From contig OY101126.1 of the NCBI GenBank assembly GCA_956465555.1, positions 414,501-478,500 of the forward strand: a stretch of 64,000 bases of DNA. The letters are read 5' to 3'. Origin of the DNA: Nitzschia sp. pyKryTriq1 (taxonomy: Eukaryota; Bacillariophyta; Bacillariophyceae; Bacillariales; Bacillariaceae). Both the position numbers and the translations under genes were made by a program. Shown one piece after another: positions 115-21,177 of the stretch. Within the stretch, counting starts at the first letter, position 1. Each line of letters opens with the position of its first letter. The notes beneath the pieces were generated by a model that ran no database searches, was not told the DNA's origin, and worked only from the letters and a program-made list of their open reading frames with translations.

Positions 115-698
115 TTACTCATGCACACGCTTGGAACCATTGTATTTCTTGGCAAATTTCTGGTTTCTCAGAAATTTGGGGTCCATGCCTCGTGTCGAAA
201 CATATTTGCTCTTCTTGGCTTTCTTGATCCCGTTGGCGTGAGCCTTTTGGGTGTTGTTGTGTGCACAAGTGTTCTTTTGCTGCAAATCAAAAACGAAAAC
301 AAAACAAACAGAAAATAAATGTGAGAAAACAAAGATTCAAAAGAGGATAACACTCGATGGGATTTTGGCCAGAGGCAGAGGCGGGGATGAGGACTCTCGG
401 TGCGTTGGGTGGGCCAGGAGAGGAGTGGGAGGGGGCGGAGATGTGGTACATCCGGCGAAACTTCGCTGTATCGTGCTGCAAACTCAAAGAGTGAACATAA
501 AATAGACGGATACCACTCAATGGCCTTCTTTCGAATGCATGTCACAATTGAAACAGCGTCGAGAGACAGACCGCCCATCTGAAGCACGAGCTAAAAATCA
601 ACGCCCTTCCCATCTCCTTCTGCTCCGAGCTCATCTCTAGAGAGATCCCACACAACCACTACATTCAATCAAGCCTTGTCAACACTAACCTTGACCAT
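115..698 (-). CDS. RPL29: Large-subunit ribosomal protein eL29, two exons
   Basis: Component of the cytosolic 60S ribosomal subunit. Exon 1 is only nine bases (698-690, Met-Val-Lys) and ends at a GTTAGT donor. Exon 2 runs 279-115 after a TTTGCAG acceptor. The joined product has 57 residues and reads MVKQKNTCAHNNTQ, then KAHANGIKKAKKSKY and MDPKFLRNQKFAKK, which matches the short basic eL29 family along its whole length. The 410-base intron (280-689) placed right after codon 3 is typical of ribosomal protein genes and is long for this window. The gene is easy to miss because neither exon starts a long open frame in its correct phase. It is divergent from the apyrase gene. Confidence 0.88.
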
Positions 699-1460
699 GA
701 TTGCAAATTAAATTCGACTCGGTAGATGTGAACACTACTTTAGTGAGTTCCGACAAGAACAAGGACAACGTCTTGGTACGTGAGGGAGTACCGGTACCGC
801 GACGATGATGCTCATCGCACCGACCATCCCCCATCGCCACAGCCACACCATAGCAAGGCGCGGAAACGCAGTTTGGTTGTTTACCGCTCACCACCTTACT
901 ACAAAAGTTGAATTTCAGACGACTCGTCCGACTTGTTCTTGGATACAAGGTCCGCCCGTCGCTCGTCGCTTCAAATCCACGTCCGTCCTTCAACCCGGTC
1001 ATTGGTCCCGGTCATTCCATCATTCATTCAAATTCAGTTCGTCGTCACGCGCGTCGTCCAACGGCAACAAAACAACGTGCGTTTCGGCGAAAAGCATGAA
1101 TGAAGCGAGAATGTGAGAAGTGAGAAGGTCACTGGTACGAAATCTACCAGTCTCTTCATACTACTGAGCTCTTTTCTCTCTTGGTCTCGATATAACATTG
1201 AGAAAGGTCCCAATCCTATCCTATACCACTAGCGTTGCTGTCCGCCCTTGTTATCACCTCTCTTCCTTTTCAAAATATTACATTCCTACAAGCTGTTTGT
1301 TCCGCAGCGACGAAAGACTGACAAAATTAGGAGCCGACAAGGAAGTACCGATTCCATTGCAAAGTCCCCAGCTACCACTGGTGGATTAATCTTGGAATCT
1401 GAGCAGTTCAATAAAAAGAACAACCTAGCAGAAGAAGACGATTTAGATTTCGATATCGAG
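699..1460. other. Intergenic region between divergent eL29 and apyrase genes
   Basis: About 760 bases shared by two divergent genes, presumably holding both promoters. A palindrome-like gtaccggtac lies near 789. The frame of the apyrase stays open upstream of its first ATG to about 1233 and looks protein-like, so part of this stretch (about 1233-1460) may be coding in a gene with an upstream first exon that I could not place. I see no other gene. Confidence 0.4.
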
Positions 1461-2735
1461 ATGATAGCACCGGCGCCCGTCTCGCGGGGGGAGAGTATGG
1501 CGTATCCCCGCCATCACTCGACTGTCTTGTCCAAAGTCCAGTGGTATCTGCGACAGCATTCTCGGGCCGTCCTTGCGACGATGGCCTTCATTCTTTTTGT
1601 TCTGGTGATTTCGTCGGATATTCTTCACGACTCGGAGTTGGGACCGGGTGGATCGATTCGAGGCCAGTCCTTGTTCAAGCAGAATTATGGAGGGAACACG
1701 TTTGCCGGTGCGGCTCGTGCCGGTTACTTTCGTCCCGAAGACAGCAAAGTCAAAGAAAATGTCTTTCGGTTTGCGGCAGTCACGGATCTGGATCAGCTTT
1801 CCATGGTCAAAGGCAAGAAGCCAATGTTCCGCAGTGTTCTCTTGCCAGGAAAGATCACGTATGATCCCGAGAGTAACACCTACGAGTTGGAAACGGAAAC
1901 GTCCCGAGAGTTAATTACGGGTCACAACGAGGCTGGTCGTGGAGCCGAGTTTAGTGAGCTGACTATTTATAACAATCGTTTGCTCACGTTTGATGATCGA
2001 ACGGGCGAAGTCTTTGAGATTTTGAATTCCGCGGACGGCAAGTCGAGTTTTGTGGTGCCGCGCTTTGTCGTGACGGAAGGAGACGGGGATACCGATAAGG
2101 GTATGAAGTGGGAGTGGTCTACCGTCAAGAATGGGGAGCTATACATGGGCAGTATGGGCAAGGAATATACTCGCCCGGATGGAAGTATTGCGAATACCAA
2201 CAATCTGTGGGTGAGCGTTCTCACATCGAACGGCGAACTCCGACGCGTGGACTGGGAGAGTAAGTTCAACTACGTTCGCAACGCTTTGGGCGCCCAAGCT
2301 CCTGGATACCTTATCCACGAGGCAGTCAATTGGAGCCCCAATCTGAAGAAGTGGATCTTTATGCCTCGCCGAATATCGACCGACAAATACGATGATGTAC
2401 TGGACGAGAAGCGAGGGTCGAACAAGGTCCTCTTGGTCGACGAAAAGTTTACTTCACATGAAATTGTCACAGTCAAGATGAAGAGCAATGATGGTTTGCA
2501 TGGATTTTCATCTTTTGCTTTTGTCCCTGGATCAGGGGACAAACACATCTTGGCACTTCGATCAGTGGAGGAAGATTGCGCGGGAGATGATTTGGATGTC
2601 TGCAAACAACGCTCGTACTTTGTCATTTTCGATGTGACAACGGGTGATGTCTTGATGGACGAGAAGCTTATCGACGAACCAATGAAATACGAAGGTGTCG
2701 AATTCGTCAACATGTACACAATCCCACCTCCATAG
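1461..2735 (+). CDS. Calcium-dependent apyrase (soluble calcium-activated nucleotidase family), membrane-anchored
   Basis: Hydrolyses nucleoside di- and triphosphates, preferring UDP/GDP in animal CANT1. In the Golgi or ER lumen it removes the UDP left by glycosyltransferases. The first ATG gives 424 residues: a short cytosolic start, a membrane segment at about 36-54 (LATMAFILFVLVIS), then the apyrase fold. Family motifs seen are EFSELTIYNNRLLTFDDRTG, KGMKWEWSTVKNGELYMG, HEAVNWSPNLKKWIFMPRR and GFSSFAFVPG near the end, with the acidic residues that bind calcium in this fold. The layout suggests a type II luminal enzyme. The open frame continues upstream of the ATG without a stop to about 1233 and encodes a plausible basic/acidic stretch, so the true start may be in an unrecognised first exon. 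Confidence 0.86.
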   Translation: MIAPAPVSRGESMAYPRHHSTVLSKVQWYLRQHSRAVLATMAFILFVLVISSDILHDSELGPGGSIRGQSLFKQNYGGNTFAGAARAGYFRPEDSKVKENVFRFAAVTDLDQLSMVKGKKPMFRSVLLPGKITYDPESNTYELETETSRELITGHNEAGRGAEFSELTIYNNRLLTFDDRTGEVFEILNSADGKSSFVVPRFVVTEGDGDTDKGMKWEWSTVKNGELYMGSMGKEYTRPDGSIANTNNLWVSVLTSNGELRRVDWESKFNYVRNALGAQAPGYLIHEAVNWSPNLKKWIFMPRRISTDKYDDVLDEKRGSNKVLLVDEKFTSHEIVTVKMKSNDGLHGFSSFAFVPGSGDKHILALRSVEEDCAGDDLDVCKQRSYFVIFDVTTGDVLMDEKLIDEPMKYEGVEFVNMYTIPPP

Positions 2736-3412
2736 ACCACAACCGGCGTGCTAGCTGGTCGTGTGCTCTGGGTTTGAGACAAATAATGAGATGGCGATTT
2801 CTCTGGCTTTTGACTTCTCAAAGATGCAATTACGATCAAACTACATTATTTACTTTAGATGCATATTCCTGTGTACTGTTCTAGCTTAGGATCCCCTGTT
2901 TATTCTTCATACAAGACGCGCAATATGATTTCTGCTCTGCTGGATCTCTCTCTCTCTACGACTCTAGAATCTCCTCATATTGACTACCAGCTACAGTACC
3001 AGTTCCGGGTCGTACTTGTACAGTCCTTGTACCGAACAGGTACAGTACTGTACTGTACTGTACGAATACCTGTACTGGTACGCAGTACCGTACCGTACCG
3101 GTACCAAGAAGAGTACAGCACGGGTAATGATTCATTCGACCTCCTAATACTCGGTACTTCCTACTGTACGTCCTACGGTACGGGAGTACGAGTACCGGTA
3201 CGGTACTCGTATGAGCACAGTATCTTCGTTTGCGTTCGCGATCTTTTATGATCGATGACGTTCCGCGAAGCTCATCGTGTATGCAGGAACGTTTCGCTAT
3301 ACCAGCTAGCAGAGAGCATCGTTCTTCGGGCATCTTTGTGTTTCAGCAACTGATGTTGCCTCACACCTCACACAAAATCTCCGGCATACCAAATACACAG
3401 GACGCCGACAAG
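2736..3412. other. Intergenic region with dense GTAC/ACCGGT palindromes
   Basis: No convincing gene. From about 2992 to 3215 the sequence is crowded with GTAC tetramers and longer palindromes such as gtaccggtac, plus a run of tacagtactgtactgtactg. The region lies between the apyrase stop and the glutathione S-transferase start, so it should include the promoter of the latter. Similar islands recur between other genes in this window. Confidence 0.5.
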
Positions 3413-4090
3413 ATGGTTCTTCAAAACTGCAAACTCACTTACTTTCCTATTCCCGGGCGCGGCGAAGCGATCAGGTTGGCTTTGACCATCGGCGGAATCG
3501 TATTCACTGATGAGAGAATCAACTTCCCACAATGGCCCGAATTAAAGGGGACAACACCTTGGGGATCGCTTCCCGTCCTCACCTTGTCGAGTGGTCAAAA
3601 GATCGCACAGCAGCGTGCCATTCTCCGCATGGTGGGTAAAGAAGCCGGTCTCTACCCTGAAGATGGCGTTCAAGCAGCGCTTGTCGACTCAGTCATTGAT
3701 TTCGTAGACGACGTTGGACCAAAGATCAACAGTCAAGGGCAAGGTCTCCCGAAAGAGGAAAAAGAAGCTGCTAGAGCACAAGCTGTTGCAAAGGGTGGTG
3801 TGGTTTATGAGATGATTGAGAAAATCGAGAAATTTGTCGGCGAAAATGGTACCGATGGATATGCGGTCGGGAATTCGCTGACCATTGCCGATTTGTTCAT
3901 CTTTACAATGCTGGGAACACTTGTCTCTGGGCTTTATGATGGCGTACCCGTCGATGCGATTGATTCAGAGGACTTTTCAGGGCTTATGACTGTTCGCAAA
4001 ACAGTGCGATCCCATGCGGCTGTTTCCAAGTGGTACGACGGCCTTGATCCGGCATTCAAGATTCCGGCTTCATTCGGTCCATTCAACTAG
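3413..4090 (+). CDS. Glutathione S-transferase, sigma-like
   Basis: Predicted cytosolic enzyme that conjugates glutathione to electrophiles or isomerises prostaglandin-like substrates. The start MVLQNCKLTYFPIPGRGEAI gives 225 residues, the usual family length. The N-terminal thioredoxin-like domain (about 1-80) has the candidate catalytic Tyr in LTYFPIPGRGEAIR and the cis-Pro in GSLPVL. The glutathione-contact helix reads QQRAILRMVG, where many family members have Q-S. The helical C-terminal domain (about 90-225) contains NSLTIADLFIF, the conserved N-capping box of GSTs. The frame is open upstream with other ATGs (for example 3248), so a longer N-terminus is possible, but this start fits the family best. 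Confidence 0.87.
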   Translation: MVLQNCKLTYFPIPGRGEAIRLALTIGGIVFTDERINFPQWPELKGTTPWGSLPVLTLSSGQKIAQQRAILRMVGKEAGLYPEDGVQAALVDSVIDFVDDVGPKINSQGQGLPKEEKEAARAQAVAKGGVVYEMIEKIEKFVGENGTDGYAVGNSLTIADLFIFTMLGTLVSGLYDGVPVDAIDSEDFSGLMTVRKTVRSHAAVSKWYDGLDPAFKIPASFGPFN

Positions 4091-4934
4091 AGGAGCACTG
4101 GGCTTTTGTGACGGTTTTTGTGACCAAATGGAAAGAAGGGAACCATTTTAAAGGGATGGATAAGGTTGATTTTAGGATTTCCGAAGAGAAAGATCTTGGA
4201 AGAAAAAAATGGTTGGGCTTTCGAGTGCTGCCGGGTAGCACATCACACCGATACTTTTCACCAAAAACATCTACGACAACACAAAATAATTTCCATGGCT
4301 GGCATATACATCAAGCAATAGCACAACCAGTTGATCTCAAATAGACAGACGACATCTAGTAGACTCCGCTTGGATATATAATGCTAGCGGAACTCTACTC
4401 TTGAGACTTGCTTGAGGGTTGTTTCGAGAGAGAGAGAGAGTTTCAGCGAGGAGGGGCACTGTTTGAAGAAGTCGAACAAGTCAAGTGCGTTACCTTTCGA
4501 GCTCTTGTAACAGTGACAGTTTTCGCGAGCTCCGGCGTGTACCACCGTTCGTAATATATTGTGTCCGGCCAAGCGAAAGAAACAATAAAGAGCCTGCTTC
4601 GACTGCACGGAATTTTTGGCTCGGCACCAACTTTCGCGTTTCCCAAATTTTGTCGATGATGACTTCTTATTTCCGTTCCCTTTTCGCATTCCTTCTTCGA
4701 GAGAGAGTGTCGAGTTGACATCAGGGCGACGACGCTGCGAACCACTCCTTCTTCGAGAGAGAGTGTCGAGTTGACATCAGGGCGACGACGCTGCGAACCA
4801 CTCCCCAGAGGGTACAGTACAGATAGTAGACACACGGCACAATCATCCATCTACTAAAAGTAGAATAAAAAACAGTCGACTGCCTTCATCGTCTTCCCCG
4901 TTTGCGTTTTCTTCAAGTGCGCAGAAGAAGTAGG
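4091..4934. other. Intergenic region, 3' flank of the GST and promoter side of the MsrB-like gene
   Basis: No gene recognised. Contents: a GA microsatellite near 4427-4441, and a perfect 56-base tandem duplication at 4691-4802 listed separately. A cytosine/thymine-rich stretch follows just before the next start codon. Confidence 0.5.
4691..4802. repeat. Perfect 56-bp tandem duplication
   Basis: Two head-to-tail copies, 4691-4746 and 4747-4802, each beginning ccttcttcgagagagagtg and ending gctgcgaaccact, with no differences seen. The repeat lies 130-250 bases upstream of the MsrB-like start codon, so it may affect its promoter or 5' leader. The identity of the copies suggests a recent duplication or an assembly artefact. 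Confidence 0.9.
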
Positions 4935-6248
4935 ATGTCTGGCTTTGATCGGCGAGTCTTTGAAGTGGACGGGACTCCTCTCAAGCATTGGGACCCCAAT
5001 AATTTTCAACCCGAACGAGATGAAAGTTGTCGAGTTGTGTATAAACCAAAAGATGGCTCTGACTTTTTCCAAAAGATCCTTCGAAAAGAAGATTATGTGG
5101 TCATGCAGCGAGAAGCCATGGAGCAACCCTACTTCAGCAAATACAACCGATTTTATCCCAAGAAAGGACATTTCTGCTGTAAAGCCTGTGGCAATCCCCT
5201 CTACTCGCATACGACAAAATTGAAGATTGAGGATGGCTGGCCCGCTTTTGGTGCCTGTGTTGACGGTGCTGTGGGAATGATATCCGAAGAAAAACGAAAA
5301 GAAAAAGACGAAAAGGAAAGGACCGCAGCCATACGTTTACAGTCGTTTGTCCGTGGATGTATGGGCCGAGCCAAACTCAGCCGTCAAGTGGAAATGTTAA
5401 TTGAGCATGTGGCAGGACTTGCCAAGGAGTTGGAAAATCAAGAATTGAACGGATCGGATGAGGAATATGAAGATCTCGAAGAAGAACCGGGTGCCATCAA
5501 AATTGGGAGAGGTTCGGAGTCCCGGGACTCCCTATTCAAAAGTTTGTCGCTACACTCTCTTGACTTATCACTCTTGGACGGGAATAGCTCCTCCTCTTCC
5601 TTTGCATCATTCGGTGATGATTCTTTCTCGGAGGCGATACCCACGTCATCAAATATTAAAAACAGCAGCAGCATCAAGCCCAAGCGCGAGCCCTCCCAAG
5701 GCAGTCAAGTAGCAGCTTCGGCGGCGAATGCTGCCATGAAACGAACGCAGGACCGGGAATCCAAAAGCGCGATCCTCACGGCGCTCGGTGAACTCTACCT
5801 TGAAATTCATTGTCATAGATGCAAATCCTATCTGGGGAAAGTCTTCGAGGGAGAAAGTCGCGGACAAGACGGGGAAACGTATAAAGAGCACCATCGGGTA
5901 AATGGTCGAGCACTGAAATATGTGGAAGATGATCTTCCCAAACGTACCATGGCAAGAACGAGTATACTATTTGCGAATCAATCACAGATGCGGTTGATGG
6001 GATTGAAACTGGTCGCTCCGACGCATAAAGAGGAGCCAGCGTTTGTGCTTGCTAGACCACGCCAGCCCTTTGTCAGTCCACGATCGAAACGAAGGAGCGT
6101 TGCCATTGGCGACTCACTCAAAAGTCCCAAGATGAGGGCAAAACCTGGGATTGGAGTATCGTTTCAAAGCCCGGAAAAATCGCCCAGAAAACTTTCATCG
6201 AAACAGAAAAAGATGGAGAATTTCTTCCTTAGTCGTTCAGTCCATTGA
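4935..6248 (+). CDS. MsrB-like zinc-site protein interrupted by an IQ-motif insertion; catalytic Cys missing
   Basis: Related to methionine-R-sulfoxide reductase B. The product has 437 residues from MSGFDRRVF. The first half of the MsrB fold is at about 66-112: FYPKKGHFCCKACGNPLYS gives one zinc CxxC (C82, C85), and DGWPAFGACV matches the GWPSF box. An insertion of about 165 residues follows, with an IQ calmodulin-binding motif (LQSFVRGCMGR, about 135-145) and acidic and Ser-rich stretches. The fold resumes at about 279: EIHCHRCKSYLGKVFEG gives the second CxxC (C293, C296). The catalytic motif RYCxN is replaced by HHRVNG (319-324), so Arg321 sits where the catalytic Cys should be. The C-terminus is basic with several SP sites. 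I infer a non-enzymatic or altered-function protein; methionine sulfoxide reductase activity is unlikely. Confidence 0.75.
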   Translation: MSGFDRRVFEVDGTPLKHWDPNNFQPERDESCRVVYKPKDGSDFFQKILRKEDYVVMQREAMEQPYFSKYNRFYPKKGHFCCKACGNPLYSHTTKLKIEDGWPAFGACVDGAVGMISEEKRKEKDEKERTAAIRLQSFVRGCMGRAKLSRQVEMLIEHVAGLAKELENQELNGSDEEYEDLEEEPGAIKIGRGSESRDSLFKSLSLHSLDLSLLDGNSSSSSFASFGDDSFSEAIPTSSNIKNSSSIKPKREPSQGSQVAASAANAAMKRTQDRESKSAILTALGELYLEIHCHRCKSYLGKVFEGESRGQDGETYKEHHRVNGRALKYVEDDLPKRTMARTSILFANQSQMRLMGLKLVAPTHKEEPAFVLARPRQPFVSPRSKRRSVAIGDSLKSPKMRAKPGIGVSFQSPEKSPRKLSSKQKKMENFFLSRSVH

Positions 6249-8639: not shown

Positions 8640-8716
8640 TACCGGTACTCTACTAGTAGAGAGGGATACGACCCGGCCAGATCAGAGACGGTCCGGTCAA
8701 AAAAGTGGACAAACCG

Positions 8717-8732
8717 CCCCCCCCCCCCCCCC
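8717..8732. repeat. Poly-C homopolymer, 16 bases
   Basis: An uninterrupted run of 16 C in non-coding DNA, about 80 bases from the C-tract array. Such runs are unstable and error-prone in sequencing, so the exact length is uncertain. Confidence 0.8.
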
Positions 8733-9112
8733 AATGAAAGGAGGCCACCATAGCCAATAGACAAAAAACACAAGACTAGTACTGCACTACCCCTCTCATA
8801 CTTTTAGGGCCGGCCGCGGGCGGGGAGACCGACTTCAAAATGGATCAAATAAAAGGTACGGAGCGAGAAGCGTCGAGCCTACTAACTTGTAAAAACTCGT
8901 TCTGGTACTCGCGATGCGGGAAAGAACCCGCGAATGAAAGTACTCGCAGTCTACTCGTACTCGTTACGAGTAGAGATGATTAAACTCGTCGCCTCATCAC
9001 ACCCTCTCTCAACTGCTCTCTGCGAGTAGATTAGAGAGCTATTCATTCCTGTGGGTGTCGACTCACTAGTAAAAAGTATCACATTACAAGTAACGACAAA
9101 GATGCTATTTCC

Positions 9113-12100
9113 CTACTGCTCATCTGCAAAGCTACCTTCGTCCTCCCCGCTAACATAGCTCCCCTCTGCACCGTCTTCGTTGGAATAATAGGAACGCGAT
9201 CCTTGACTTTGAGATCCTTCTTCTCCTGAATAGTAAGATTTAGATCCTTGACTTTGAGATCCTTCACCTGAATAATTCGAGCGACTCCCTTCTTGGGAGC
9301 GTTCCTCTCCGGAATAGTCCGATCGAGATCCTTGAGATCCTTCCTCCCCTGAATAGTACGATCTGGATCCTTGTGAGCCCGGAGAGCCTTCCTCGCCACT
9401 ATATTGACTGCGGCTTCCCTCTTCACCACTGTACTGGCTGCGACGCCTGCTACCGGAATGACTTCCGCTTCGGCTTCCGCTTCGGCTGCCGGAATGACTT
9501 CCACTTCTGCTACCGGAACGACTTCCGCTGCCGCTTCGACTGTCCTCCCCACTGTAATATGATCGACTTCCCTGACTCCTGCTGACTTGACTACCTTCAT
9601 CGCTGTACCGGCTACGGCTTCCTTCTTCGCTGTAATAGCTTCTGCTGCCGCTTCGACTTCCACTTTGGCTTCCCCGGCTTCGACTGCCTTCGTTGCTGTA
9701 ATATGATCGACTTGCACTGCCTGATCCAGAGTGAGAGCGACTTCCTTCTTCATCATCATAGTAGGAACCTTCTTCTTCGCCCTCTTCGAAAGGCTCGTCA
9801 GCTCCTCCAAAGGCGCCTTCGTTTCCAAAGCCCATTTGGCCTTGATCGTCACCAAAGTCGCCTTCTCCTTCATCGAACATGCCTTCAGCTGGAATCGGTA
9901 GGCTGGCGGCGGCAATTGCGGCCGTCCCAGCTGCTGCCCCTTCAGCTCCGCCTGCAAGCGCAGAGCTCAGTGCAAAGGCTCCATCTTCTCCACGTTGAGG
10001 CCGGTTCTTGCTCTTGTGCACCGCTGCACGAGCTCGTTGAGTCGCGCTCCGCTCCTGCATTGTTTGGAGTGTAGACACCAGTTCCGCCTCGCGCCCCTTG
10101 AATTGTTCCATCATGGCGTCAACCTTCTCGACTTCGTCAGGCAGTACAAGACGAACTAATGCATCCACTTGAGCATGATATTCGGCTCGTTTTTCTCGGT
10201 CTTCTGTCATGGTGGTCGCGGTGGTTGCGGAACCAGAGGCGCTTCCAGAACCACTTTCTGAGCCGCTGAACGAATCTTCATCGTCTTCAACATCCGAGTC
10301 TGTCACGCTCTTATTATCCTTGCGGGAACTACGCTTGGAGGACCCTGCAAGGCTGGAACCGGCAAACGAGTCGGCGCCTGCAGCAATTCCGTCCCAGTTC
10401 CCATCATCGTCCACCTGCCCCGACCCGCGTGAGCCAGACGCGTAGCTACTTCCCTCGTCAGCAGATGAACGGGAATATGAGCCGCTACCTTCATCTCCAT
10501 CTCCATCCTCCCCCTCTTCGCCTTCTTCTTCGGGGTTGCCCGACTCGTACGTGCTATCCTCGGAACTGGTGTAGGAGCCCTCCTCAGAACCAGAATCGGA
10601 GCGGGAGCGAGAGCCCGAGCCTGATCCAGACGATTCCTTCGGTCCTGCCTCGCCAAATCCCGAGTTGCCGAAGAAATCGTCATTACCACCTTTCTCCTTA
10701 CCTCCCCAATCACCACCTCCATCATTGCCGAAGAAGCCACCGGCTCCATTAGCGGTGTTCCCCCAACCTGAATCAGTAGCACCAAAAGCGTTGTCCTTTT
10801 CGGCTACTGAGCCATCTTGGCCATCGCCGTTTTCTCGAGCTACAGAGGGTTCGTCGAATGCGAAAAGCTCCATATTATCATCGTCGCCAAATGTACCGTT
10901 AGTTTGTGCAGCGTCGATTCCGAATGCATTATCATCGTCGTTTTGCTTATTTTTCTTGCCGAAACCAAACACATTCTTTGTGTCTTGAGCTTGTTCGGGC
11001 TTGTTGTCCTCATCTTTGTCGCCACCAAAGCCGAAAGCATTTTCTTTTTCTCCATCGGAAGCATCATCGTCTCCTTCTCCCATCTTGTCATCATCGTCGT
11101 CAAGACCTTTTTTCCCTTTCTTTTTACCAAATTTGGATGACGCCCACCCAATAAAGGCGCAGAAAGCAATTCCTCCAAAGATTCCACCTACGATGGCACC
11201 GGCGTTTCCTCCGCCACCGCCATCGTCGTCGCCTTTTCCTTTTCCACCTCCGCCTCCTGTAGGCTGAGGGGCTTCGGTCTGGAGCGGGGCGGCAGTAGGA
11301 GGCAAGGTACTAGTCAGAGGGAAAGAGGCATCCACAATCCGAAGACCATTTCTTGGATCCTCCGCCGTGAGGATGTCTTGAAGGATACCATCGGCAATCG
11401 ACTTTTGCCCCGCAGCAGAGTACTCGTCGGTAATTTTCTGAGCATCTTCTTCGTCTAGCTTCACCTGGAACTTTGCGAAAGCGGTCTGGCACGTTTCGGT
11501 ATCATCCAGGCCTTCGGGACAATCATCGTCAAGGAGAAGATAGATTTCGTCAGTTCGCGTAATAAAGCTCACGGCCAGTCGTCTGTGTCTAAGTTGTTGC
11601 TGCAAAAGACGTCGAGCTTGCGAAAGAGAATCAACTGTTTGTTTTGCAAACTCGCCATAGGCAGTATCCAATCCTTGCCTGTCCGGACCCGTTTCAAGAT
11701 CCAAGGCGGTCAAACCTCTGATGTTTGAAATTATGAAGGAGCTGTACACTTCGGCTACCCCGGGAGGCAACGTCGGCGGAGGCGAACCCGGGGGAGGAGT
11801 CCCGGCAGGTGCTTGCGTCCCACCGAGTTGATCCACAGCTACTGAGACCTCATAACAAATCTCCAAAAGAAAGTCTTCTTGTTCTTGTGTAGCGTCTTGG
11901 CCTGGCATAGCACCGAAAATTGGAATCTGCCCGGTCTCATCCGATAGTTTGTCATAGGTTTGTGGTAGAGGGCTTTCCAGTGTCGCAAAAGTAGCGCCTT
12001 CAAATTGATCCAGCGTGAGTCGATTAAGAAATAGAACGTATTCTTCCTGATTGAGATAAGCATCACGATTCTGATCTGACGTCGCCATGGCAGTCCGACA

Positions 12101-14110
12101 CAAAGCGTCAGAGAATGTCGGTGGCCCATCTCCTCCACCCTGCGGTTGCGCCGTGGGTGTTCCACCACCACCTGGCGACGCTGATGGCGGCGTACCACCC
12201 GAGCCACCTGCCTGTATTGCAATGGCGGTGTCCACGCAGAACTCATCAAGAAATTCTGATTGAGCGGTGCTTGGGCTTTGACCTGGCTTAGAACCAAAAA
12301 TGTTGATTTCGCCGCTTTGGGCGTTGCTTTCGAAATTATTCTGCAGCTCTGGACTCAAGTCAGCAAACGCTGATCCTGAGTATTGATTTTGGGTCAACCG
12401 ATTGAGGAATCGCACGTATTCGTCTTGATTCAAATTGTCGTCTCGGTTAAAGTCCGACGATGCCATTGCAGTCCGACAGACCTGCGGTAAATATGTTGGC
12501 GGGGATGACGCTACGGGTGGACTTGGTTGAGGCGCTCCTGTGGGCCCATCTCCTCCCTCACCTGGGTTGTCGATAGTTAAATCGGTTTCACAACACAGGG
12601 CGGCGAGGAAATCAGCCTGCGCCGAAGTTGGCGTCTGCCCCGGTTTTGACCCCGTAACATCGATCTGGCCGTTGGTCACAGCAAATTTGTCATAATTGCT
12701 CTTCAAACCCGCCGGAAGAGCGTCGAATTCAACGCCACTGTACTCGTTGTTGGAGAGTCGGTTGATAAATCTTACGTATTCCGATTCGTCCATGAGGTCA
12801 TCACGACTCAAATCGGCGATAGCTATGGCAGTGTTGCACTGAGCCTGGGAGATAGTCCCTGAACAATCTGGACCTTCGCCACCCGCGTTTTCTGATGGTG
12901 CCTTTGTCGGTGACGAAACAGGAAGTCCTGGGTTCTGGATGGCTAGATCGGTTTCACAGCATAAAGCATCGAGCATAACATCTTGGGCGGCAGTAGGAGT
13001 TTGGCCGGGTTTGCTTCCTGTCACATCCACAACGGAAGCATCTGTGGCAAATTTTTCGAATGTGCTCTGAATGTTGCCAGGCAGTGCGTCAAAGGTAGCG
13101 CCTTGGTAGGCATTGCTGGACAATCGATTGACGAAGCGGACGTATTCACTAGGGTCCATCTGATCATCTCGACTCAAGTCAGCAATCGCCAGGGCGGTGT
13201 TGCATTGGGATCGTTGAATAGTTCCAGTACAGTCCACTTCTCCGGCTCCGCCTCCTCCAGTAGGTGCGGCGACAGGAGCTCCCACCACTGGTGAACTATC
13301 CGTGCACGGTCCATCTGGTGGATTCGAGTCGACAATGGCGATGATCTGGGTACACATGTCACTTATTCTTTGTGATTCTTCCGCACTAGGAGTTTGACCG
13401 GGCTTGGTTCCTTCAACATTGATTGTATTTGTTCCACTGTCTGCGTACTCAGAAAACGTTTCTTGTAATTCACAAGGTAGCGAGAGGAACGTTGAACTCG
13501 CATACTGATTTCCAAAGAGCTGATTGAGAAAGGTGACATATTCAGTCTGGCTCAGTTGATCGTCCCGATTAGAGTCCCGAATGGCTATGGCAAGAGTGCA
13601 TTGCTGCTCCGTCTGCAGTCTCCGAGAAACTAGACTTGAAGAATCGTCACCCGCAAGATCGGGCGACCACCGTGCGGACATCCACTCTTGCTCGGAGAAA
13701 TTCAACATTGTGGGCGATGATTCCTCTATTTGTTGGTATGGCCTGGGCGGTAAGGGATCGTGTGCCTCTCCGGTCGATGCTGCCAGTAACACACCTAGTA
13801 CCGAAACGGGTAACAACCTTTTACGGGAGCCAGATTTTGCCCCGGAATTGGTGCGAGGTTCCTTGTTTGGATGTTGGCAACTACTTCGTTCACCATCTGT
13901 GTCTCGGTTTGACGCACCGGTAGTATTGTCATAGAAAGATGCCCCATCTTTCCCGAAAGACGGCAGCGGCATCTTTCTTTCTGAAGGTGCCGCGGCGGTC
14001 CGAGCTCTTTGTCGTTTCTTCATCGTTGGTCTACTTCGTTCACTGGTAGTTGTTTGCCGAACGCGCACTTTCTTGCGGAATGATGAACGTAGACACTCGT
14101 GGGTATTCAT
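9113..14110 (-). CDS. Large single-pass membrane protein: five EF-hand-like repeats and a long acidic Ser/Arg/Tyr-rich tail
   Basis: No known name. The 1665 residues are in one uninterrupted frame. A hydrophobic signal-like segment (about 97-115, PVSVLGVLLAAS) sits after a basic leader, so translation may start at a later Met. An RRLQ site (163-166) resembles the RxL processing site of diatom cell-wall precursors. Five repeats of about 110-125 residues follow (about 168-260, 295-390, 416-515, 544-632, 669-760). Each has a single EF-hand-like loop (D-x-NRDD-x-L-x-x-x-EYVxFLNxL), a paired Cys frame and a signature G(T/S)KPGQ(T/S)P; the fifth is more divergent (GAMPGQ). A Pro-rich hinge and a conserved-looking region (about 785-935) lead to a membrane segment (969-990, AGAIVGGIFGGIAFCAFIGW) and a basic stop-transfer. 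The tail (991-1665) is acidic, contains a helical block (about 1300-1365, EKVDAMMEQFKGREAELV), then repeats of YSGEEGSxSQGSRS. I infer calcium binding outside and a phosphorylatable tail inside. Confidence 0.8.
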   Translation of the reverse strand: MNTHECLRSSFRKKVRVRQTTTSERSRPTMKKRQRARTAAAPSERKMPLPSFGKDGASFYDNTTGASNRDTDGERSSCQHPNKEPRTNSGAKSGSRKRLLPVSVLGVLLAASTGEAHDPLPPRPYQQIEESSPTMLNFSEQEWMSARWSPDLAGDDSSSLVSRRLQTEQQCTLAIAIRDSNRDDQLSQTEYVTFLNQLFGNQYASSTFLSLPCELQETFSEYADSGTNTINVEGTKPGQTPSAEESQRISDMCTQIIAIVDSNPPDGPCTDSSPVVGAPVAAPTGGGGAGEVDCTGTIQRSQCNTALAIADLSRDDQMDPSEYVRFVNRLSSNAYQGATFDALPGNIQSTFEKFATDASVVDVTGSKPGQTPTAAQDVMLDALCCETDLAIQNPGLPVSSPTKAPSENAGGEGPDCSGTISQAQCNTAIAIADLSRDDLMDESEYVRFINRLSNNEYSGVEFDALPAGLKSNYDKFAVTNGQIDVTGSKPGQTPTSAQADFLAALCCETDLTIDNPGEGGDGPTGAPQPSPPVASSPPTYLPQVCRTAMASSDFNRDDNLNQDEYVRFLNRLTQNQYSGSAFADLSPELQNNFESNAQSGEINIFGSKPGQSPSTAQSEFLDEFCVDTAIAIQAGGSGGTPPSASPGGGGTPTAQPQGGGDGPPTFSDALCRTAMATSDQNRDAYLNQEEYVLFLNRLTLDQFEGATFATLESPLPQTYDKLSDETGQIPIFGAMPGQDATQEQEDFLLEICYEVSVAVDQLGGTQAPAGTPPPGSPPPTLPPGVAEVYSSFIISNIRGLTALDLETGPDRQGLDTAYGEFAKQTVDSLSQARRLLQQQLRHRRLAVSFITRTDEIYLLLDDDCPEGLDDTETCQTAFAKFQVKLDEEDAQKITDEYSAAGQKSIADGILQDILTAEDPRNGLRIVDASFPLTSTLPPTAAPLQTEAPQPTGGGGGKGKGDDDGGGGGNAGAIVGGIFGGIAFCAFIGWASSKFGKKKGKKGLDDDDDKMGEGDDDASDGEKENAFGFGGDKDEDNKPEQAQDTKNVFGFGKKNKQNDDDNAFGIDAAQTNGTFGDDDNMELFAFDEPSVARENGDGQDGSVAEKDNAFGATDSGWGNTANGAGGFFGNDGGGDWGGKEKGGNDDFFGNSGFGEAGPKESSGSGSGSRSRSDSGSEEGSYTSSEDSTYESGNPEEEGEEGEDGDGDEGSGSYSRSSADEGSSYASGSRGSGQVDDDGNWDGIAAGADSFAGSSLAGSSKRSSRKDNKSVTDSDVEDDEDSFSGSESGSGSASGSATTATTMTEDREKRAEYHAQVDALVRLVLPDEVEKVDAMMEQFKGREAELVSTLQTMQERSATQRARAAVHKSKNRPQRGEDGAFALSSALAGGAEGAAAGTAAIAAASLPIPAEGMFDEGEGDFGDDQGQMGFGNEGAFGGADEPFEEGEEEGSYYDDEEGSRSHSGSGSASRSYYSNEGSRSRGSQSGSRSGSRSYYSEEGSRSRYSDEGSQVSRSQGSRSYYSGEDSRSGSGSRSGSRSGSHSGSRSGSRSGSHSGSRRRSQYSGEEGSRSQYSGEEGSPGSQGSRSYYSGEEGSQGSRSDYSGEERSQEGSRSNYSGEGSQSQGSKSYYSGEEGSQSQGSRSYYSNEDGAEGSYVSGEDEGSFADEQ

Positions 14111-15454: not shown

Positions 15455-18400
15455 CTATTTCTGATGCCCGTGGTCGTCAAGGCTGGCCTTGCCGTCGTCA
15501 TAAGGCTGCGTTGTAAGATTTCGGTTTTTCTTCAGTCGCTTTTTGATGCGGTAACCTTTGTAGTTCGAGCCGGCTGCATACAGAACATTGATGATTTGCT
15601 GCACTGGTAACGCCCCCGCTCCAAGAAGCAGACAGAGACCCCAGTATTTCCCGTCCAGTCCGCCGTCCACGACGGCGAATGCAACGCTTCCAAATTGAAC
15701 GATAAGGCATTGGAGGGCCGATGTAACCAATAAGATACCACAGAACAATGGATTGTTCAGCATTCCCGAAAACACATTGACTGGAGCGGAAGAAAGCGGA
15801 AACTCGTGAGCCAGGAACACATACACTTTTGGACTTCAATACGATGGACTCCGAACTTACATTCCCCCTTGAGATGTCGGGCGTTCACTTCATTGAAGAG
15901 CTGCATCCAAACGAAAGCATTGAAAATTATGGTGTAGTGAGTCGAGTTCTCTCCTTCGTCGTGAAGCACGTTACCCGGTACAACATTGAGGAGGTCAGGA
16001 TTGAAGAGAAGAGTCATGACAACAGTAATTTGATACGATGCTTGACCCAACATGTTGGCCCACATTCGTTTGGTAATCATGTGGTCTGTTCGGTTCACTG
16101 GAGGTTTCTCTAAGAGCGCATCAACCGGAGGCTCAGACGCCAGAGCAAGACTTGCTAAGGAATCCATCAATAGGTTGACCCAAAGAAGCTGAATCGCCGC
16201 AAGTGGACTCACTTGAAACGCGAAGGCTCCGGTGAGGGCAGTGACCACAGCAGAAATGTTCACAGTCAACTGGAACTGAAGGAACTTCTGAATCGAGGCA
16301 TAGATATTGCGACCCCACTTGGCTGCCGTGACGATCGAAGCAAAGTTGTCATCGAGAAGAATGATATCAGCCGCATCCTTCGCGATCTGAGTACCAGCAA
16401 TTCCCATCGCAAAACCGATATCAGCACGTTTCAAAGCTGGGGCGTCATTGGTACCATCACCTGTCATTGCAACAACCTGCCGATCAGGGAAAATGGTAAT
16501 GTTGTCCTCCATGAGAAGCTTCTTACAAGCCGCTTTGTCGGCAAACAAAGTCGATTGATTCAAACCATGGGCAAGAGTCAGTTTGTCGTCCGGTGAAGAT
16601 CGTGCGAGCACACGTAGGTGCGGCCAAATCTTGTCAAAATTACTTTGATCAAATTCCGTGCCAGATTCATTCTCTGCGGGCCGGTAAACCTGCATTCGGA
16701 AGTCGGCACCAGTCATCAACACGTTTTCCTTCAGGCAATCCGCGACCTTCTCTGTCGTTCCCTCTTTGAAGTGGAAATCGCGAAGAATTCCAGCTTGATA
16801 AGCGATACTGACCGCTGTGTTGGGATTGTCTCCAGTGACCATGCGAACATCGATACCGGCGCGATAACACTTTTCGATGGCCAAAGGAACCTCGGGGCGC
16901 AACGGGTCTTCGATGCCGACGAGCCCAACCGCAACTAGATTGGTTTCCGCCTCAAGGGCCGGGCTCCCGTCCGCGTTCTCGAATTTGTCAGACAGTTTCT
17001 CCAAATCAAAGCCACTGGGAAGCTCGGCATAAGCGAGCCCCAAACATCTCATTCCACGACGTGCGTATAGCTGGGCGACTCTTTTGAGTTCCTTAGAAGC
17101 TTCGTCTGTCATTGGCAGGATCTCTCCATGCTCATCAATGTACTTGGTACATCTTGCGTGGAGGACTTCTTGAGCTCCCTTAGTGTAAATGCTATAGCCA
17201 CCCGCCTCATTTGGCACAGCCCAACTCATCATTTTGCGAGCGGAAGAAAAGCCAAACATTTTTCCTTCGCCCAGAAACTCTCCGAGTTTTCCAACGGACG
17301 ACCGTCCCCTCGTCGTGTTTCGGATCTTTTCGTAGTTCATTCCCAGGTCATGCACCAAGGAAAGCAAGGCCACTTCGGTAGGATTTCCGGCTGAGCCCTC
17401 GAGCTCGCCAGTACTCTCCTTGTAATACAATACTGTCTCGTTCATGGTACAGATTGAGATAAGGCGTACAAGGAGATCGACCGCAGAGAGAGAAGGGCAA
17501 TTATCATTCACGTAGTCTCCGAGTTTGATCCTAGGATCATCCAAAATCATGCTATTCATGGCCAGCAAAAGAGCCCGGGCAGTCATCTTGTTTGCCGTCA
17601 GAGTACCTGTGGGGAGCAAAACGGACGATGCAGCATATGAGTTTCTTGGGGTTGTTTATATGACATCCTTGACGCGTGTAAAGAAGCGGACATACCTGTC
17701 TTATCGGTGCAAATAGTTGTAGCGCAACCCATGGTTTCACAAGCGTCCAAATGTTTGACCAAGTTTTGCTCTTTGGTCATCTTGTTCGATGAGAAAGCAA
17801 GAGCCAGCGTGACCGCTAGTGGGAGACCCTCAGGGACGGCGACGGCCAAAACAGTGATGGATACAATCAGATAGTCGATCATTTCAGAGATGGGATCGTT
17901 ATGAATGCCCAACCCAATGATGCAACTAGCAACGAAAGCCACCGTGGCACAGACAGTGCCTGCAATACCAATCTGCTTTGCAATCAGATCCAACTTGACA
18001 AACAAGGGCGAGTTTTCATCTTCGCCGCCGAGTTCGTCGTCGTGATCTGCTGATTCATAGACGCGAGCCTTGATCTTACCGGCCACCGAGTTGATACCGA
18101 CAGCAATCACAACCATTTTACCGGATCCCTCGCTGGCATTTGTGCCACTAAGGACGACATCCCCTGGGCGCTTGGTCACGGTCTTGGATTCTCCGGTAAG
18201 GGTACTCTCGTCCATCTTCAGGTCAGCGACGGGTCCGAGCAAAACGCAGTCCGCTGGAATAGATGCCAAGTTGTGACTGTTGACGGAGAGAATATCACCC
18301 ACAACGATATCATCATCAGTGATGGAGACTTGCTTTCCGTCCCGAATGACAGCCTTTGTGTTTGTCTCGTGTAGACTCTTCGAGAGGCGGATAACGGCAA

Positions 18401-19160
18401 ACTGCTTTGCGTAGTCAATACTGGCTGTCACGAGGACAACGATAGCGACGGAAACCATAATCGCAGCTCCTTCGATCCAGCAAGTTGAACATTCTCCTGG
18501 ATGAGTCGTGACCTCCACAACGATACTGATAATACCGAGAACGAGGAGCATGATGAGCACAAAGTCCTGAATGGCTTCCCAGCAGAGCTGACAGAAGCTA
18601 TCGAGCTTTTTCTCTGTAAGTGCGTTAGTACCGAAGAACTCTCGCCGATGTTCGACTTCGCGAGGGTCGATGCCTGTCTCCGGACTGGATCGGAGCAGCA
18701 ACGAAGTGAGGACATTGGCAGCGAGATCTGCGTTCTTCTCGGCCTCGGCGTGTTCCGGAGTGTAATCCCCGAAAGGCCCCTTCGCCTCGTCTTCCTTCAT
18801 CTTATCAATGAGCTGGCGCAGCTTGGCGTTCATCTTTCGCTCTGCCGATGGGTTCTCGGCGTCCTCCTTCGATGAGCCTTCGCCTTTGGAAAGCGCCTTT
18901 TCCAGGATCTTGATGAGCGCGGCTCGGGTCCGGTCATTACTGAGGATGCCCAAGTCCTCTGCGCTGACCAAATAGTCAGCCATATAATTCCCTAGATCCT
19001 TGCTGAAACTTTCCGCGATGGAGACTTCGATGCCCGCACCGAGACCTCCAAAGCGCGAGTCAGGTTTTTTCTCTTCATCATCGTGACTACCATTCAAGGT
19101 TGTCCCCGCACCGTTCTTCGCGCCGTTGGCTTGCGGCTGCTCCTCTCCTGGCAGGGTCAT
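15455..19160 (-). CDS. Plasma-membrane-type Ca2+-transporting P-type ATPase (P2B), three exons
   Basis: Exports Ca2+ from the cytosol against its gradient using ATP. Exons are 19160-17696, 17606-15861 and 15780-15455, with introns of 89 bp (GTATGT...CACAG) and 80 bp (GTAAGT...TCCAG). The product has 1178 residues. The joins restore DKTGTLTANKM across intron 1 and NARHLKGEFNVFSG across intron 2, both as expected for the family. Seen in order: a 150-residue cytosolic N-terminus, TM1-2 (FVLIMLLVLGIISIVVEV), actuator TGES, VAVPEGLPLAVTLALAFS (TM4), phosphorylation Asp486 in DKTGT, KGAQE, MVTGDN, MTGDGTNDAPAL, and TM5-10 with QLLWVNLLMDSLASLALA. The short C-tail (RIKKRLKKNRN...) lacks a clear calmodulin site, so autoinhibition may use the N-terminus as in plant ACAs. 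Localisation (plasma membrane or endomembrane) cannot be read from the sequence. Confidence 0.93.
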
Positions 19161-21177
19161 CGTGCTATCCTCCAGGCGGCTAACAAATCGAACTAATAAC
19201 AACAGACCAAAACCCTGATTCAATGGGTTCAAGTTCTGGTAGTTTCTTGGGTCTTTTCGACGCGAGAAGGTGTTGTTATCCGAGGAAAACGAGTAGTAGC
19301 GAAAAGTGGGATCGTCGTCTCGTCTCTCTCTCACTCTCTGCAAACGACAAACGATGATGCAGACCGCAGAGCGGAACGACCAGCTCCTACGTATACCCTC
19401 GCTCGATTCTCGATACCTTCTGCTGATGCCGCCCGCCAAAACTGGCGGGCAATTATGGAACGCCAAAAACGGGACAGTAACAAATCCCCCCGAGTAGACC
19501 CCGTATTTCGTGACTTTCTCACTTCCGGTCATTATTATCCACGTTGGAATCCTTAGAAAATCTACCTAGGGCTACAAAGAGTTCGAACACGTTATCCCAA
19601 ATCTGTGCTCTGGGCATAAAAATTACTTGAGTATTGCCCTTCTCCAAAGGATACTTAATGTCTCCGGCAGTTCGGCCACCAAAGATTAAATGATCGGATC
19701 TTGGATGGGCCCAGTGGTATATGCCCTGCAAATCCTGCCCCCTGAGAAAAAGCTGGCAATTGATCTCAATCGCCAGCTTCCCTTGCGCCTGCGCCTTTTT
19801 CGAGCAGCTATGGGTGCCGATGCCGTGTTATTCGGATTCTGCGTCCGTCGTGCGACGGAAATTCACTACTCGGTGGAGATATGGCAACTTTTGACATTTG
19901 CGAAGCCCCGAAAACATGAAAAAGTCTATTCGGATGATGATAACGAATACTTTTCAATCTGATTTTGATGTCAAAAGATGAGTCTTGAAGAGATTGAACC
20001 AAGCATTGAATTCTACAGATCAAACCCAGCATTGAATTCTAGAGATCAAACCAAGCATTTACCTATAGAGATCGAACCACATGGGGTGTTATAGCGCAGA
20101 GCAATTGGGTGTTAATGCCTTGGGGGGGCTAGAGTTGGGTATCCCCTTTTAGCATCCCGCTCTTATTCGAGTCAGTCGACATTTCATTGAGTCAGGCGAC
20201 TCCTCAACATGAACGTAAATTCGACACGTCCGACTGAACAATCACGCGATAGCGCTAGTAATACCGGGTAGGCAATGTTTTATTTTGATTCACGCGATAG
20301 CGCTAGTAATAGGCATTGCTATTTTTTCCTACCACCCCTCTATCGAACCAAGAAGTAACCCCTCTATCGAACACAGCCTTAACTGCAAGTTACGGGCGGG
20401 GGGTAGCAGCCCCCATATTTCAGGTACCCATCCCATAAATGGTACGTACCGGTACGTACATAAAAGAATGGATGACGCAATAATAACTACGGTATTCTAA
20501 CTGGTACTTTATGCATACTTGTTCAGTACCGGTACAATAAGTACCGAGCGAAATCAGCGCGCTGGGCGAGCTATGTATGATCGATTTCGATGGATGGATG
20601 AAACACAAGAACTAAGAAAAGCACGATCGAGGAATCATCATCGTCATCATCAGTCATTACTGGTATTGATACCTCTTCGTCTGAAACCAAGGGAATTGGA
20701 CGACGCTCTGGAGCAGTAAAGAGTTAGTTGAATGACCGATTGTGCTTTTGTCTACTTCTTGTGATGGTGGTGGTGGTGGTGGTTTGACACGGAGCGACGA
20801 GATGTTCTTTTGAGTAGCAGCAGAGGCGCCTCCAAGAACGAGGACTTACAACAGTAGACTGTTTCTTCTTTCCGGAACGTGGCAATTTTTCCTCACATAG
20901 TTCGATGTTTACTTCACAACAGTCCTAGAAATGAATCAAAAGAATGTCTAGAGTGAAAGTTCTTCACAAATGTACAAATCTATGGTCTTTATGGTCTAGT
21001 GGTAAATTTTCTTCTTCTCGTGAACGTTCACATCGTCCTGTGATTGGTATCAAGCTCTTTGTACGTCGGGAAGTTTGTGTAACTTGGTGACAAGAGAAGT
21101 TGGGGGAGTATTGTTGGCCGGCAAAACGTGGCCAAAGTATGTTGGTGGTGTTTCTGACAGAGACCACGAATAATGAT
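19161..21177. other. Two-kilobase intergenic region with small repeats and possible decayed sequence
   Basis: No supported gene. The left part is the Ca2+-ATPase promoter/5' leader. A minus-strand open frame at 19519-19731 (includes HPRSDHLIFGGRTAGDIKYP) reads like protein but has no start context or family I recognise, and may be a decayed fragment. Short direct repeats lie at about 19995-20075 and 20242-20311. A GTAC/ACCGGT island is at 20430-20545, and a (GTG)n stretch is near 20764-20784. Confidence 0.4.
20242..20311. repeat. Direct repeat of 22 bp, period 48
   Basis: The unit tcacgcgatagcgctagtaa (plus ta) occurs at 20242-20263 and again, identical, at 20290-20311. It contains the palindrome tagcgcta. 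Just upstream (about 19995-20075), a separate 30-base unit around agcattgaattct and agatcaaacc repeats about three times with decay. Function unknown. Confidence 0.7.

Follow-up and report, generated by a model that had tools for sequence, protein, structure and literature searches.

The DNA studied here, referred to as the window, is a stretch of 64,000 nucleotides from contig OY101126.1 (positions 414,501 to 478,500). On its minus strand, positions 9113-14110 hold a single frame of 1665 codons and a stop, with no internal stop. For the base composition of the window, a frame of this length would remain free of stops by chance with a probability of ~1e-36, in line with an earlier note, written from the letters alone, that described a large EF-hand-repeat membrane protein at this place. 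The encoded protein combines five EF-hand-like modules, a juxtamembrane domain, one membrane span and a long tail (Table 1). Judged by sequence comparison, it is an expanded member of a small, unnamed family of diatom membrane proteins that share the EF module.

The translation start is uncertain, because codons 1-97 differ in guanine-plus-cytosine (GC) content by codon position (0.49/0.60/0.42, compared with 0.57-0.63/0.47-0.58/0.42-0.53 elsewhere in the frame) and because the hydrophobic stretch of three relatives, with an ATG of our choosing, starts within ~30 residues. The true start codon may lie further into the frame than the first ATG. Hydropathy reveals one clear span at residues 970-990, as had been proposed. 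Residues 98-117 form a less hydrophobic, signal-like stretch, and an alanine-rich stretch near 1383-1412 is the weakest of the three; we did not accept it as a second span.

The five modules stand in tandem, beginning at C171, C303, C425, C545 and C671, each with one EF-hand loop and with glycine- and proline-rich linkers between them. They are 33-43% identical to module 1 and share 19 invariant alignment columns, including two cysteines per module; the earlier note had described conserved cysteines. The PROSITE-type EF-hand pattern is a 12-residue calcium loop with oxygen ligands at positions 1, 3, 5, 9 and 12. Four of the five loops fit it, whereas 2000 shuffles of the predicted luminal part gave 0.007 fitting loops on average and never more than 1. 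The fifth loop (DQNRDAYLNQEE) was not matched, on our reading due to position 6. The GxKPGQxP signature, which comes after the loop, is kept in modules 1-4 and becomes GAMPGQDA, without the lysine and the last proline, in module 5. The signature that had been assigned to every module thus holds for four.

An AlphaFold2 model of module 3, based on the alignment of the five window modules, reached a predicted local distance difference test score (pLDDT) of 88.6 and a predicted template modelling score (pTM) of 0.83. In order, it has a helix, a loop that includes a short strand, two more helices, a pair of short strands and a last helix. Among the best 50 of its 260 Foldseek matches at E <=10, all save two are EF-hand proteins by title or by the known nature of the chain, with query template modelling scores of 0.34-0.51. 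The exceptions, 8v3l and 7rro, are microtubule structures. Against viral proteins, Foldseek returned 66 matches, the best (E 0.98) being an EF-hand protein. At E <=1, a profile of eight modules (five from the window and three from relatives) matched 47 sequences of the PDB; most are EF-hand chains of the S100, calmodulin, troponin C and similar kinds, and one is a dockerin. In the model, the module looks like a divergent EF-hand pair whose second loop lost its ligands and became a GSKPGQ turn. Residues 169-780 have a net charge of -56, and the modules would be expected to bind calcium.

The eukaryotic search space for relatives was the source genome of the window, in which other loci are labelled C1, C5, C6, C7, C14 and C17 (a, b and c denoting separate C17 genes). 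The whole protein reached two further loci, via the tail. The tail helix matched C14, two places in C17 and three marginal loci, and module 3 gave three weak matches beyond the gene (E 0.029, 0.42 and 0.99). The latter two belong to genes already reached through the tail helix, one in C17 and one in C14, and lie upstream of that match; the first (C6, L026) was dropped, as it covers query residues 39-91 only, without the EF loop, in a frame of 108 codons. Read with GT-AG introns, C14 and C17b encode 1039 and 1124 residues, and C17a, read without an intron, encodes 858. By eye, all three have a signal-like start, one EF module, a linker rich in proline, serine and threonine, a juxtamembrane domain, a span, GDW repeats and a tail helix.

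Searches with C14 and C17b extended the family to C7 (E 2.7e-13 including the linker and 2.2e-4 for the module alone) and C17c (E 8.1e-8 and 3.1e-10). The C17c protein (L061, G000:C17:69500-77500, minus strand) has 490 residues and, by eye, a signal peptide, EF module, span and acidic tail, with no RRL and no tail-helix match. At least six genes of the genome carry the EF module, and the tail helix was found in four of six; five modules are seen in the window gene only. The earlier note could name no family and left the protein standing alone, and we reject its status as an orphan given relatives in the same genome.

Profiles built without the window sequence strengthen this placement. The search set of 360 sequences consisted of the window protein and its reversed form, 158 further open frames no shorter than 100 codons, and 200 shuffles. 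The EF profile (C14, C17a, C17b, C17c and C7) found the window protein at E 1.3e-28 and touched all five modules, with best stretches of 1.3e-6 to 0.066. The juxtamembrane profile (C14, C17b and C5, with C17a left out) matched residues 821-928 at E 9.5e-9, and the tail-helix profile (C14, C17a and C17b) gave E 1.5e-18; the best decoys reached E 0.35, 1.0 and 1.9 for EF, juxtamembrane and tail helix, respectively. The order of EF module, juxtamembrane domain and tail helix is the same in the window gene and three other genes. Because C14, C17a and C17b were first found with window sequence, the module and tail profiles remain partly dependent on it. Since blastp between the window protein and relatives gave matches in modules and tail and none in the juxtamembrane domain, homology there rests on the profile and on alignments A3 and A8.

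Beyond this genome, the tail and module alignments gave 51 and 40 pattern stretches in the viral collection, and the prokaryote collection yielded 18 and 224 stretches, none of them confirmed; phage records gave no match. Among the literature matches listed, no title or opening of an abstract describes such a protein, though a published account may still exist. Two family members, L034 and L035 (G000:C17:713000-728500), lie on the same strand ~4 kilobases (kb) apart, with another frame of at least 838 codons between them that looks RelA/SpoT-like. The proline- and threonine-rich linker of the C14 relative matches two open frames of 7155 and 6261 codons at G000:C14:1180471-1218745.

Ahead of the span, the juxtamembrane domain carries two of the three RRL sites (residues 163, 833 and 843), where the earlier note had seen the motif as a single RRLQ site. 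When the luminal part was shuffled 2000 times, RRL occurred 0.081 times on average and never more than twice. At the last site, R and L are invariant in all five sequences of alignment A8, and RRL itself is found in four, C17a having RHL. SEA-type juxtamembrane domains, of ~150 residues near a span and with a conserved processing-like site, offer a possible likeness. No SEA match was found by Pfam at E <=1 in the window protein or the C14, C17a and C17b frames, and the juxtamembrane profile had one match in the PDB, at chance level. RXL is described as a processing site of biosilica proteins in passages of PMC5647440 and PMC5525289. Conservation of R-x-L in the juxtamembrane domain of relatives upholds the suggestion of a processing-type site, and the protein is perhaps processed at RRL. 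The RRL juxtamembrane domain is shared by a C5 protein (L062, G000:C5:2463500-2470500; coding frame 619-5784, 1722 codons). In this protein, by eye, a long N-terminal part is followed by a hydrophobic span, a proline- and threonine-rich linker, the juxtamembrane domain and then leucine-rich repeats.

Immediately after the span stands KFGKKKGKK. Under the positive-inside rule, positive charges mark the cytosolic side, so these lysines would place the tail in the cytosol. The tail had been described as acidic with YSGEE and SRS repeats. It is acidic as a whole, but the last 195 residues, which bear the repeats, are near neutral (net charge -5). They include 12 Y-[SD]-x-E motifs (positions 1451-1646), and four N-[AV]-F-G motifs lie at residues 1024-1110 of the acidic tail (window ~10778-11041, minus strand). 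Missed in that description was a conserved helical domain (~1306-1361), ~310 residues past the span. In a set of 633 frames and an equal number of shuffles, the tail helix had weak matches at E 1.1e-5, 2.4e-4 and 1.6e-3 in, by eye, a WW-domain protein, the C-terminal end of a kinesin-like protein and a cyclophilin/FG-rich protein (L010, L012 and L011, respectively). The same loci gave E 0.20, 0.48 and 0.28 in the genome-wide search. We treat them only as leads, because preselection by the whole-genome search flattered their E-values. In the PDB, the tail-helix profile had two matches, both at chance level.

Table 1. Features of the EF-module gene and its predicted protein, with coordinates in the window.
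Feature	Window position	Strand	Basis or remark
Whole protein P0001, open frame of 1665 codons and stop	9113..14110	minus	P(open by chance) ~1e-36
Basic N-terminal extension, residues 1-97; possibly untranslated or partly 5' leader	13820..14110	minus	Deviating codon-position GC
Signal-peptide-like hydrophobic stretch, residues 98-117	13760..13819	minus	Hydropathy
RRL, residues 163-165, ahead of module 1	13616..13624	minus	
EF module 1, residues 171-263	13322..13600	minus	Alignment, pattern, profile of relatives
EF module 2, residues 303-394	12929..13204	minus	Alignment, pattern, profile of relatives
EF module 3, residues 425-516	12563..12838	minus	64% DNA identity to module 2; used for modelling
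EF module 4, residues 545-635	12206..12478	minus	Alignment, pattern, profile of relatives
EF module 5, residues 671-762	11825..12100	minus	GAMPGQDA replaces GxKPGQxP; weakest match to relatives' profile, E 0.066
Juxtamembrane domain, residues 785-934; conserved CP...C and I..G.LQ..L	11309..11758	minus	Alignments A3 and A8; profile of relatives
Two RRL sites, residues 833-835 and 843-845, within juxtamembrane domain	11576..11614	minus	
Transmembrane segment, residues 970-990, then SSKFGKKKGKKG	11141..11203	minus	Hydropathy
Predicted cytosolic tail, 675 residues	9116..11140	minus	Net charge -69, 128 Ser; side from charges
GNWDGIAAGA, residues 1235-1253; by eye like GDW repeats of relatives	10352..10408	minus	blastp, window residues 1212-1356 to C14
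Conserved helical domain of tail, residues 1302-1372	9995..10207	minus	Profile of relatives, E 1.5e-18
SRS / YSGEE-type repeat region, residues 1451-1647	9170..9760	minus	Short 24-base tandem repeat inside

The genome itself bears on function. The silicon transporter family PF03842 has eight matches, all over the cut-off. A search pattern for GGQKFAL, the silicanin heptapeptide (PMC5525289), without its last residue has two matches, at C1 and C6, and the backward control pattern has one. At C1 lies a silicanin-1-like gene for a 430-residue protein with the full GGQKFAL and, ahead of it, 18 cysteines, which equals the published number; at C6, no frame of at least 150 codons covers the site on that strand. 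Because of the eight silicon-transporter matches and the silicanin-1-like gene, we take the source organism to be a silicifying diatom, which suits the comparison with diatom biosilica proteins in the earlier note.

Some known diatom proteins have a comparable layout. Passages of PMC5525289 describe Sin1 as having a domain rich in asparagine and glutamine with 18 conserved cysteines, GGQKFAL ahead of the span and a cytosolic end of 20 residues. Like silicanin-1 (Sin1/SiMat7), the window protein comes from a diatom and has RRL, a cysteine-bearing luminal part, one span and a signal-like stretch, the last by hydropathy alone and 97 codons past the first ATG. Unlike silicanin-1, it has EF modules, no GGQKFAL and a tail of 675 residues. 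It also has 18 cysteines in residues 166-969, a coincidence with no aligned similarity. The best blastp match to the silicanin-like protein of the genome is not significant (E 1.1), and with GGQKFAL absent we reject silicanin membership. Passages of PMC5501833 count 15 SiMat7-like proteins, broadly defined, in T. pseudonana and 10 in P. tricornutum, with an endoplasmic reticulum (ER) signal, RXL and a C-terminal span, a layout like that predicted here; of SiMat7 and its four subfamilies, the sequence comparison took in the silicanin-1-like protein of this genome only.

In the silicalemma associated proteins (SAPs), as portrayed in passages of PMC5647440, the luminal region is rich in serine (TpSAP1 has 18 Ser in 23 residues), and a conserved 28-residue segment comes just past the span. 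TpSAP1-3 and the window protein are alike in a signal peptide (signal-like in the window protein), RXL sites, one span and a conserved cytosolic segment. In contrast to the SAPs, the densest luminal stretch of the window protein has 6 Ser in 23, and its conserved tail domain does not directly follow the span. Because a defining silicanin feature and one SAP feature are absent, we file the protein under neither group. By the tests made it is not a silicanin; for the SAPs, the comparison covered the serine-rich region and the place of the conserved segment. The diatom death-specific protein (DSP) also has a signal peptide and EF-hands, but it is short, with two EF-hands and no span (214 residues in Ulnaria acus, by passages of PMC10888605).

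Next to the EF-module gene, minus-strand frames 15760-17619 and 17601-19532 encode domains of a P-type cation ATPase, namely Cation_ATPase, E1-E2, a hydrolase domain and those of the cation-ATPase N and C termini; PF00690, PF00122, PF13246 and PF00689 are among them. Frame 15455-15826 (minus) looks like the end of this pump gene and lies ~1.3 kb upstream of the first ATG of the EF-module gene. From its sequence, we take the gene at window 15455-19532 for a plasma-membrane-type calcium pump. In a nuclear genome, such adjacency is weak functional evidence.

Our preferred interpretation, tentative and somewhat short of an even chance, is that the gene encodes a calcium-dependent linker in the secretory pathway of a silicifying diatom: a type I membrane protein placed either at the silica vesicle or at the surface of the cell. 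The EF modules would face the lumen or the outside and bind calcium, which would stiffen the modules and their glycine- and proline-rich linkers into an arm gripping the matrix of wall or vesicle. Cleavage, perhaps at RRL, could release or remodel the arm. On the other side, the helical domain and the serine- and tyrosine-rich stretches of the tail might hold cytosolic partners, perhaps cytoskeletal, under control by phosphorylation. The most likely site would be the membrane of the silica deposition vesicle, or the plasma membrane under the wall. We infer location, processing, partners and lumen-facing modules from sequence.

Support for the linker comes from the excess of EF patterns, the EF-hand chains matched by the eight-module profile and by Foldseek, the module model, the kept order of three domains, the excess of RRL and the conservation of R-x-L, and further from the silicon transporters and silicanin-like gene in the genome and the cation-ATPase gene upstream. 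Silica-vesicle proteins with one span and RXL have been published (passages of PMC5525289 and PMC5647440). The luminal parts of silicanin-1 and TpSAP3 are reported to stay in the silica after cleavage, with a cut proposed at GGQKFAL in silicanin-1 and one TpSAP3 fragment that fits an RXL site. The earlier reading is partly supported, in its silicifying diatom, its EF-hand-like folds and the R-x-L site conserved in relatives, but not in a protein standing alone.

Several observations weigh against this interpretation. The link to silica depends on the organism and on a layout held in common with proteins of unrelated sequence, and the RRL sites may be a coincidence or have another use along the secretory pathway. 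The EF-hand assignment is blurred in places: none of the Foldseek matches of module 3 is below E 0.001, the best whole-chain E in the PDB (4e-4) sums two EF-hands of E 4.6-4.9 each, and Pfam EF-hand_1 scores 20.5 bits, under its cut-off of 25.4. Among the three relatives tested, C14 and C17a fit the EF pattern and C17b does not. Single-sequence module matches between window and relatives are weak (E 0.42, 0.99 and 0.45) and become strong by profiles only, and module 4 found only the five modules of its own gene in the genome. The single-sequence model of the juxtamembrane domain was unusable (pLDDT 43.5), and, once the genome-wide selection is allowed for, the tail helix resembles a kinesin and two other proteins only marginally.

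Alternatively, the protein may be a receptor for adhesion or signalling at the plasma membrane with no role in silica, its modules binding extracellular polymers or a partner cell and its tail signalling or anchoring actin, for example in attachment or gliding. We consider this possible but on balance unlikely, although not far behind the linker. Glycine- and proline-rich linkers, and those rich in proline, serine and threonine in the relatives, are usual in extracellular stalks; the juxtamembrane domain also occurs beside leucine-rich repeats, by eye, in the C5 protein; and the window protein lacks both a serine-rich stretch and the K-[SG]-[SG]-K motif. Arguing against a receptor, Pfam recognised no adhesion domain; the scans took in the window protein and the C14, C17a and C17b frames, and in the window protein no family was above its cut-off. 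Moreover, by 2017 RXL cleavage sites had been found only in biosilica-associated proteins, according to a passage of PMC5647440.

A buffer or storage protein of the secretory pathway, in which acidic modules merely hold calcium, seems improbable. The negative charge of the module region, up to five predicted sites and the adjoining cation-pump gene would suit such a role. Counter to this, a span and a conserved domain in the cytosol would be of no need to a buffer, and the C terminus (...SFADEQ) has no KDEL-like ER retention signal.

We give still less credence to a luminal calcium sensor like STIM, which would signal the calcium level of a store or vesicle to partners in the cytosol or at the plasma membrane. 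In STIM, the luminal side bears an EF-hand pair, one loop of which is degenerate, and a single span leads to cytosolic helices; the luminal domain is of the EF-SAM type, and a CAD/SOAR coiled coil gates Orai. The window protein would share with STIM1 the luminal EF-hand pair with a degenerate loop (as seen in the module model), the one span and the cytosolic helices, a layout that is plainer in the single-module relatives and, by eye, in compact C17c. It differs in having five modules, a juxtamembrane domain instead of SAM, and RRL sites, which suggest export. In C14, C17a and C17b, the EF module stands apart from the span, with a long linker rich in proline, serine and threonine and an extra domain in between, and C17c has no tail-helix match. 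No STIM chain is among the 47 PDB sequences matched by the eight-module profile, and SAM had no match at E <=1 in the Pfam scans. According to passages of PMC11085791, diatoms have Orai and STIM1 is undetected in them; diatom Orai is said to be divergent. In this genome no Orai (PF07856) match is over the cut-off, and one weak match falls on what is, by eye, an ABC-transporter frame.

In a variant that we regard as a long shot, the whole EF-module family, with C17c and the single-module proteins as its plain form and the five-module protein as its expanded form, would be the luminal calcium sensor that replaces STIM in diatoms. Its EF-hand pairs would read calcium in the silica vesicle, ER or periplasm and relay the signal through the span to the tail. 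If true, this would fill a gap openly named in a passage of the diatom calcium literature (PMC11085791). Finally, a chance open frame of repetitive sequence is refuted, despite the low-complexity tail and the deviating codon pattern of the first 97 codons, by the probability of its staying open and by three domains found with profiles from other loci.

Few proteins, the silicanin and the SAPs among them, are known to span the membrane around forming silica, and passages of PMC5647440 and PMC5525289 leave open how silica-membrane proteins link to the cytoskeleton. The linker we favour would make the window protein a candidate connection from the wall or its vesicle to the inside of the cell. 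A family with calcium modules on one side and a conserved tail helix on the other, in four of its six members, provides concrete candidates for tagging.

At window ~8713-8735, some 380 bases downstream of the EF-module gene, the minus strand has a run of G.

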